From Natrialbaceae archaeon (GTDB lineage: Archaea > Halobacteriota > Halobacteria > Halobacteriales > Natrialbaceae): 64,000 nucleotides of DNA. This document shows positions 20,576-29,943 of the stretch, one piece after another. The stretch covers positions 124,001 through 188,000 of the forward strand of contig PWMF01000217.1 of assembly GCA_003559215.1 (NCBI GenBank), written 5' to 3'. Numbering within the stretch: position 1 is the first letter of the stretch; the number at the start of each line of letters is the position of its first letter. The notes under the pieces are model-generated. The model was not told the origin of the DNA. It worked only from the letters and a program-made list of their open reading frames with translations, and did not search any database. The translations under genes and the position numbers were made by a program.

Positions 20576-20648
20576 GGGCGCGTAGCTCAGTGGACAGAGT
20601 TCTTGGTTCCGGACCAAGATGTCGCGGGTTCAAATCCCGTCGCGCCCG
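20576..20648 (+). tRNA. tRNA-Arg (anticodon CCG)
   Basis: A 73-nt cloverleaf: acceptor stem GGGCGCG pairs with CGCGCCC (20641-20647) with G20648 as discriminator; the D arm begins GTAGCTCAG; the anticodon stem CTTGG/CCAAG encloses the 7-nt loop TTCCGGA, giving anticodon CCG for arginine; the T stem GCGGG/CCCGT encloses TTCAAAT. No intron. The CCA end is not encoded. Its 3' end is duplicated 77 bp downstream. Confidence 0.95.
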
Positions 20649-20727
20649 CTCGGCTCGTTACACTCGCCTCGCAGGCGCGACGTAGCTCGCGAACGCGGTG
20701 CGTTCGCTCACTCCCGTCGCGCCCGCT
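20635..20727. repeat. Direct repeat of the tRNA-Arg 3' end
   Basis: The 16-bp sequence TCCCGTCGCGCCCGCT occurs at 20635-20650 (T stem/acceptor of the tRNA) and again at 20712-20727. Between them, GGCGCGACGTAGCTCG (about 20675-20690) resembles the 5' part of the tRNA. The arrangement fits either an empty att-like scar left by an element integrated at the tRNA 3' end or a collapsed partial tRNA duplication. Confidence 0.6.
20685..20716 (+). repeat. 32-bp palindromic dispersed repeat, copy 1
   Basis: This 32-bp stretch contains a perfect inverted repeat GCGAACGC-GGT-GCGTTCGC (20689-20707) and is 29/32 identical to the reverse complement of 29418-29449. Both copies lie in decayed, non-coding DNA. 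It resembles a REP-like dispersed element. Confidence 0.5.
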
Positions 20728-20825
20728 GTTTTATTCCCGGCCCTCGAGTAGTGTTCCTGCCTCGAGCGCCGGCCCGTCGAACTCCGGGCGAAGCTTCAGG
20801 GCTATCGATCCGATGGTTCCGACGT

Positions 20826-28553: not shown

Positions 28554-28979
28554 CTACTGCGGCGGGAGCCGGACGTGACCGAACCAGAACTCCTCGAGGC
28601 TCTTGATCATCGAGACGAGGTCGTCGGGTGCGATCGGTTTCGCGAGGTAGGCGTTGGCGGCGGCGCGGTAGCAGCTCTCGACGTCCTCGTCGGCGTCCGA
28701 ACTCGACAGGACGATGACTGGAAGCCGCTGAAGCGCCGGCGACGAGCGGATCCGCTCGAGGACGGTCTCCCCGCTGGTGCCGGGCAGGTTCAGGTCCAGA
28801 AGGACGAGGTCGGGAGCGGAGTCCTCGTCGGCCCGTCGCTCGAGAACCGCCAGCGCCTCCTCGCCGGTCGTCGCCACGCGGAGAGTGTGATCGCCGTCGG
28901 CCTCCGCGAACGCCTCGCGAACGAGCCGAACGTCTCCGGGGTTGTCCTCGACGAGCAGCACTTCCCTCGAGCGGGTCAT
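28554..28979 (-). CDS. Response regulator (receiver domain only)
   Basis: A 141-aa stand-alone receiver domain: the acidic pair in LLVEDNPGD (Glu11, Asp12), the phospho-acceptor Asp62 in LLDLNLPG, the Ser/Thr switch in VIVLSSSDAD, and the Lys in YLAKPI. The segment LNLPGTSGETVLERIRSSPALQRLPVIVLSSS is typical of the haloarchaeal Rcp1-like regulators that accept phosphate from sensor kinases such as light or redox sensors. No output domain. Its ATG overlaps the stop of a 47-aa upstream frame. The kinase is not in this window. Confidence 0.92.
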   Translation of the reverse strand: MTRSREVLLVEDNPGDVRLVREAFAEADGDHTLRVATTGEEALAVLERRADEDSAPDLVLLDLNLPGTSGETVLERIRSSPALQRLPVIVLSSSDADEDVESCYRAAANAYLAKPIAPDDLVSMIKSLEEFWFGHVRLPPQ

Positions 28980-29119
28980 CGCCGGGCCCACACGGACCGT
29001 CCCCGTTCGTCCGTCTCCGTCGCGAGATCGACGGCTCCGCTCATCGATCGAATCCCTGCACCGTCCATCCAGTACCGCCTGGAGCAAGCAGGTAGCACAA
29101 ACCCGTATCCGTCTCCCAT
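28976..29119 (-). CDS. Possible 47-aa protein coupled to the response regulator
   Basis: An ATG frame (MGDGYGFVLPACSRRYW...) encodes 47 residues and ends TGA overlapping the ATG of the response regulator (ATGA), which favours translational coupling. A strong TATA (CTTTTATAC in plus orientation, 29174-29182) lies about 60 nt upstream of this ATG, so the frame would be in the leader of the regulator mRNA. The sequence has no recognised homology and a basic end (GRSVWARR). It could be a small partner protein or merely an upstream reading frame controlling translation. Confidence 0.35.
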   Translation of the reverse strand: MGDGYGFVLPACSRRYWMDGAGIRSMSGAVDLATETDERGRSVWARR

Positions 29120-29173
29120 TATCGAATCCGGGGGTTTCGGACAAGTGAAACTGTCTGCTGCGTGAGCAGGACA

Positions 29174-29182
29174 CTTTTATAC
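29174..29182 (-). promoter_or_regulatory. Candidate TATA box for the response regulator operon
   Basis: Reading on the minus strand, GTATAAAAG is an almost consensus archaeal TATA element inside an otherwise GC-rich tract. With normal spacing the transcript would start near 29150 and carry a leader of about 170 nt before the response regulator, including the 47-aa frame at 28976-29119. Confidence 0.55.
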
Positions 29183-29198
29183 GTCGCTGTCTCCCCCG

Positions 29199-29774
29199 AT
29201 CGACGACCGTATTCCCGACGAGCCGACCGATCCCGCGCTGTAACCGGACGGAGAGCGATTGACGGGTGATCCCGCATTCGGCTGCGGGCTCGACCTGGGA
29301 GACCTCCCGGAGCGAGGCGAAGTCGCCGTGGGCGCAGGCCAGGGTTGGCGCCTCGCGATGGACGGGCGTGAGGTCGTAGCTCTCGTCGGCCCGCGGCGGC
29401 GACAGCGACTGGTGTCGCGTGAGTGAGCGAACGCACCACGCTCGCGAGCCACGCCGCGGCCGCTCGGCTCGTCTCACTCGCCGTTCGCTACTTCAAATCC
29501 CGCGCGATCCGCTGTTCGTGTTCACTGTCTTCGCACAGAACAGCGGACGCGACGGGAATCGATGCCTCGAGACCGGTCGACTGAAACGCGCGACCGCCTC
29601 GCGGTCGTCGCCCCGGTTCCCGAAGGACCAGTGCCGCCTCGTTCCGACCGCGGAGACGAGGCCGACCGCCGACTCCAGGTTCGGATCGCGCAGCCAGAAG
29701 TACGGGACCACCTCCACGTTCGTCGGTACGACCCGATCGAGTTCGACCGTCGCGTCGGGGAGTTCCCCGAACAC
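29199..29774 (-). pseudogene. Degenerate Bat-type (HTH_10) transcriptional regulator
   Basis: On the minus strand, 29493-29774 encodes FGELPDATVELDRVVPTNVEVVPYFWL, the typical N-terminal segment of haloarchaeal Bat-family (bacterio-opsin-activator-like) regulators. Further down, 29199-29381 encodes ESYDLTPVHREAPTLACAHGDF and SLREVSQVEPAAECGITRQSLSVRLQRG, the C-terminal HTH_10 domain. Between them the frame changes at least once and the sequence is lost or replaced by GC-rich repeat sequence (including a 32-bp dispersed repeat). No start codon or intact frame joins the parts. An IS-end-like hairpin sits directly at the 5' side. This is a dead gene; coordinates are approximate. Confidence 0.75.
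29418..29449 (-). repeat. 32-bp palindromic dispersed repeat, copy 2
   Basis: The reverse complement of this stretch is 29/32 identical to 20685-20716 (three mismatches). It interrupts the Bat-type pseudogene between its N-terminal and HTH parts. See copy 1. Confidence 0.5.
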
Positions 29775-29785
29775 GCCTTGAGCTA

Positions 29786-29805
29786 CCCACCGCTAAAGCG
29801 GTGGG
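29786..29805. mobile_element. Hairpin resembling an IS200/IS605 (TnpB-type) element end
   Basis: CCCACCGCT-AA-AGCGGTGGG: perfect 9-bp arms with a 2-nt loop, preceded by TTGAGCTA and followed by ATTCAGCG. Hairpins of this type (CCACCGC...GCGGTGG beside TTGAGCTA/ATTC words) are what I recall from the ends of haloarchaeal IS200/IS605 and IS1341-type elements. No tnpA or tnpB reading frame is present on either side, so if the assignment is right this is a solo end or relic. Confidence 0.5.
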
Positions 29806-29943
29806 ATTCAGCGTGGACTCCCGTTCCGGCCGCATAATTCCTCCATACTTTCACCGTGGTACTGTCTAGGGTCGGCGGTAGAAACCCCGCGTCCGCGAAC
29901 GACTCGTCGACCGGCGACGATGCGACCACCGCTTGGCACCCGG

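Follow-up and report, generated by a model that had tools for sequence, protein, structure and literature searches.

A solo right end of a tnpB element beside a TTAT target at the start codon of a killed bat regulator gene in a Natrialbaceae archaeon

What broke a Bat-family regulator gene in a Natrialbaceae archaeon, and what is the transposon-like hairpin that lies at its start? We analyzed the locus in a 64,000-nt window of contig C192 from a draft genome (3.94 Mb, 222 contigs, completeness 96.7%), following an earlier note that had placed the N-terminal and HTH parts of the gene in different frames. The BAT and HTH_10 traces were weak in the window alone (E 0.11 and 0.23, in different frames) because of the lesions in the gene, and congener synteny makes both of them certain. 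Aligned by BLAST, the window and five congeners share collinear blocks on either side of the locus; in the remaining three of eight congeners no syntenic match was found there. An open gene of 212-213 aa occupies the same position and strand in all four congeners with listed ORFs, and G089 aligns across the locus (alignment only; the ORF listing covered the four other congeners). The two congener proteins tested (G088 and G087) matched BAT (PF15915) and HTH_10 (PF04967) above cut-off, both in one open frame. Since this single frame is lost here, the locus is, on alignment and synteny, a pseudogene of the Bat/HTH_10 family and thus a killed regulator gene; it shares the BAT and HTH_10 parts and the synteny with such regulators and differs from them in lacking any single reading frame. 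The pseudogene seen in the earlier note stood as an observation, but its limits were corrected: it reaches the old start codon (ATG at 29835-29833), its low end is set by the congener alignment, and it includes both a deletion of 124 bp and, next to the hairpin-bearing relic, a loss of about 49 bp (Table 1). The HTH_10 remnant is in frame with the neighbouring response regulator (PF00072), forming a 307-aa open frame at 28554-29477 (-).

Table 1. Features of the bat locus, with positions in the window
Feature	Position	Strand	Basis
Bat/HTH_10 regulator pseudogene	29196..29837	-	Syntenic blocks and open congener ORFs; PF15915 and PF04967 in two congener proteins
Solo right end of a tnpB (IS1341-type IS200/IS605) element, 56 bp	29778..29833	-	Up to 98% identity to right ends in other genera; full copies with tnpB upstream
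Terminal hairpin CCCACCGCT-AA-AGCGGTGGG	29786..29805		Window pattern search
TTAT target; overlaps the former start codon of bat	29834..29837	-	Full elements begin beside TTAT(A); congener bat reads GAATTATGGCG
Right flank of the relic (GGCG), where native bat lacks about 49 bp	29774..29777	-	Alignment with five congeners
124-bp deletion scar between 9-bp direct repeats, BAT domain	29670..29678		In congeners, 123 bp separate BLAST blocks 29555-29678 and 29670 onward
131-bp insert ('dispersed repeat'), tRNA-Arg(CCG) 3'-side DNA	29424..29554		Insert relative to congeners; trailer matches

The hairpin, which had been likened to an IS605/TnpB end, proved to belong to the right end of a tnpB-only element. 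The pattern CCCACCGCTAAAGCGGTGGG matched once in the window at up to three mismatches, compared with 0.06 expected matches, and is the sole exact copy in the genome, with three more places at two mismatches. The 56-bp relic comprises the last TnpB codons (GTGVHAESHRFSGG and a stop), the hairpin and an 8-bp tail ending in TCAA; GTGVHAESHRFSGG and the stop, read in the frame of the relic, form the C-terminus of TnpB proteins from other genomes. On the minus strand the order is GAATTAT, then GCGGCC...CCCACCGCTTTAGCGGTGGGTAGCTCAA (29833 down to 29778), then GGCGTGTTCG, while the congeners run from GAATTATGGCG onward into bat with no relic between. Counted on the congener alignment, codons 2 to about 17 of bat have been replaced by the relic, with 56 bp in and about 49 bp of native sequence out. 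The suspicion that a tnpB element had left a relic where the killed gene starts was thereby upheld, with the last TnpB codons and TTAT at the start codon.

In other genera of the family the element is present as full copies about 1.39 kb long, which tnpB fills almost entirely. They extend from a left end, TTATACGA..., to a right end, TAGCTCAA, and begin at TTAT(A)CGA... with a hairpin. One full-copy protein scored above cut-off for NCBIfam guided_TnpB and for the Pfam TNB domain, and below cut-off for OrfB_IS605. The relic has the subterminal hairpin of IS200/IS605 (IS1341-type) elements, a right end common to full tnpB elements, and a position 3' of a fixed short target, TTAT, seen at its left edge and in congener bat; its identity as a tnpB-element right end is secure by sequence comparison. 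PMC8612924 gives insertion 3' of TTAC for IS608 and 3' of TTGAT for ISDra2, and by analogy TTAT is evidently the counterpart of these targets here. The relic resembles haloarchaeal IS1341-type (tnpB-only) IS200/IS605 elements in its right-end sequence, hairpin, TCAA end and TnpB C-terminus; it differs in being 56 bp only, with neither tnpB nor a left end. Its identity to the full element ends exactly at TTAT|GCGGCC, and no left-end sequence follows TTAT. A matching full element elsewhere in the genome was looked for, as the earlier note had envisaged, and was not found, the other right ends matched there being 83-84% identical to the relic. The genome contains five OrfB_IS605 matches; no Y1 transposase gene was found in it, which means that the enzyme was either lost or provided in trans. 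Elsewhere in the genome, contig C197 (about 74970-75313, L009/L017) holds matches to the left end and to the right end some 0.3 kb from each other, in what looks like a shortened element lacking tnpB, and contig C114 (L007) carries a CCCACGGCTTCAGCCGTGGG hairpin just 3' of another Bat-like regulator.

Two further lesions lie within the gene. The 124-bp deletion is marked by a 9-bp repeat common to both flanking BLAST blocks. The dispersed repeat reported between the two Bat parts is real, an insert relative to the congeners, and it matches sequence lying 3' of tRNA-Arg(CCG) in congeners as well as others, at up to 91% over 69 bp; its edges share short words with native sequence, GTGAG and CGGGA, as judged by eye. 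The genome's own tRNA-Arg (20576-20649) carries only part of the insert-like trailer. The repeat was also considered as part of the element, a candidate dropped because the sequence matches identify it as tRNA-Arg trailer DNA. Rfam returned nothing at the locus beyond a sub-threshold symR match over this insert (22.4 bits against a cut-off of 61), which we took as chance. About 80 bp beyond tRNA-Arg(CCG), within 20576-20729 of the window, the 3' end of this gene occurs a second time (CCCGTCGCGCCCGCT); this resembles an attachment-site duplication, and the trailers vary among congeners.

We also examined right ends of the element more widely, in a sample of 120 that combined the window with 119 from two surveys (19 + 40 + 60), part of the listed places. 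In 94 of these tnpB reached more than 160 bp upstream, and 26 were truncated. TTAT stood at or next to the end of element identity (positions -80 to -50) in 7 of 11 short solo ends, compared with 3 of the 94 tnpB-bearing and none of the 15 longer truncated ends (7/11 vs 3/109, Fisher P = 6e-7), in a pattern noticed post hoc with a short/long split of our own grouping. In three of the short solos (L071, L083 and L096) the TAT may derive from the element itself (GGCTATTCTCC); when these were left out the difference was 4/8 vs 3/109 (P = 3e-4). Four short solos had no TTAT (L070, L091, L151 and L153). Comparison with empty sites was made for three solos and was clear only for the one in G056, where in G055 the left flank adjoins the right one directly and TTCT stands instead of TTAT; the flanks of those in G070 and G113 were too divergent at the junction. 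Short solo right ends therefore recur in haloarchaea, mostly at TTAT, which suggests loss that starts at the transposase cut site and not palindrome-repeat deletion of the Haloquadratum type.

The history that we consider probable is insertion on the bat start codon followed by element loss starting at the TTAT cut site, and later decay of the gene. A tnpB-only IS200/IS605 (IS1341-type) element of about 1.39 kb would have landed 3' of the TTAT overlapping that codon, and all but its last 56 bp would later have been lost. From the transposase cut position just behind TTAT, this loss would extend into the 3' end of tnpB and stop at a 1-bp microhomology. With its start region already gone, bat would then have decayed further through the 124-bp repeat deletion and the 131-bp tRNA-trailer insert, although the order of the lesions is our reconstruction. 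A nick by TnpA or a cut by TnpB may have started the loss, with faulty repair sealing it: either excision would have failed after the left cut, or repair would have copied the right end only, and we give neither preference. PMC8612924 describes TnpA as cutting behind the target, and gives the proposal that TnpB cleaves the emptied site, whereupon repair brings the element back. Several points count against this history. About 49 bp are gone from the right flank too, a loss that a clean failure of excision would not call for; TTAT is missing from more than a third of the short solos in a post hoc pattern, and in three others the TAT may be the element's own; no Y1 transposase gene was found in the genome; and no empty-site strain close enough for dating the steps was found.

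Incidental random deletions, with TTAT at the edge by chance or by selection by eye, could also have produced the junction; the gene does bear other, unrelated lesions, and the TTAT pattern was noticed post hoc. This account is unlikely given the enrichment of TTAT in the short solos and its role as the target in full copies. It is a little harder still to credit that the 56-bp unit is a mobile mini-element that inserted as such. The relic does lie between target TTAT and flank as an inserted element would, and the empty site of one solo shows no loss. However, the unit is single-copy in the genome, has no left hairpin for transposase binding and meets no Y1 transposase gene there, and the short solos differ in stem and length, so they are not copies of one unit.

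The earlier note had allowed that leftover guide RNA (omega RNA) might persist at the locus; of its overall interpretation, the solo IS200/IS605-type end in a killed Bat gene stood and a working guide RNA did not. Right ends bearing tnpB fold into a long-range helix around two hairpins plus the terminal hairpin (89 distinct aligned sequences). A subset of 32 sequences has pairing in 97.7% of cells and shows 53 two-sided changes, compared with 20.9 in shuffles. What the relic retains of this fold is the terminal hairpin together with the 3' strand of the long helix; the inner hairpins are missing, and several pairs of the helix are disrupted. The relic scored 47 bits under the scaffold model, where a full element (L052) reached 126 and the best match in the relic's own genome 99. 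Published omegaRNAs carry a 3' hairpin, and the processed AmaTnpB scaffold is 106 nt, according to PMC10278001; sotRNA families RF02656/RF02657 appear in PMC12558985. Rfam found nothing at gathering on full elements, only a sub-threshold STnc480. The relic is like the omegaRNA, reRNA or sotRNA of TnpB in its 3' hairpin and scaffold 3' strand and unlike them in having no 5' half, so that the complete conserved scaffold 5' of a guide cannot form. A working guide was dropped on this structure, and the model makes one unlikely. That the relic acts in trans as a retained guide with TnpB encoded elsewhere is accordingly very improbable, even with five OrfB_IS605 matches, an intact terminal hairpin and three scaffold matches in the genome that score above the relic, since neither the inner hairpins nor the true 5' strand of helix 1 survives.

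A last alternative is the route described for Haloquadratum in PMC3119063, in which near-terminal palindromes recombine, the core is removed and element loss leaves fused ends of 52 bp. Such forms exist in this element family: readable ones were found by script at 4 of 16 places chosen from the left-end survey and the tail of the right-end one (four classified), and contig C221 of the same genome (1150-1320, L282) holds such a terminal-only form of this element type, with TTATACGA...TAGCTCAA. Haloquadratum PATEs and terminal-only IS605 derivatives resemble the relic as transposase-free remnants, about 50 bp long, of IS605-type elements; they differ in that a palindrome-repeat deletion fuses left and right ends, whereas here a right end is joined to TTAT. 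The relic does not have both ends fused at one palindrome. It retains sequence upstream of the right palindrome, has no left-end bases past TTAT and shows a breakpoint homology of 1 bp rather than about 20, so the junction sequence already contradicts this route, which occurs in the family but did not break bat and which we regard as the least credible of all.

For the organism, the outcome is one regulator fewer. The parts of the locus, a pseudogene and an IS relic, are ordinary; the TTAT-joined solo right ends are less so, and no report of them was found in the literature searched, with most subscription journals outside it. Decay of tnpB elements is already known, the reported route being deletion between palindromes. 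We tentatively raise the possibility, which we hold to be somewhat doubtful, that TTAT-joined solo right ends form a separate class of transposon scar, left by failed excision or by repair that stayed incomplete once TnpB had cut the empty site, and hence a record of the TnpB cut-and-restore cycle in wild genomes. If junctions are fixed at the transposase cut site, this would implicate an enzyme in starting the loss, and would give natural evidence on the failure of TnpB-driven element restoration.
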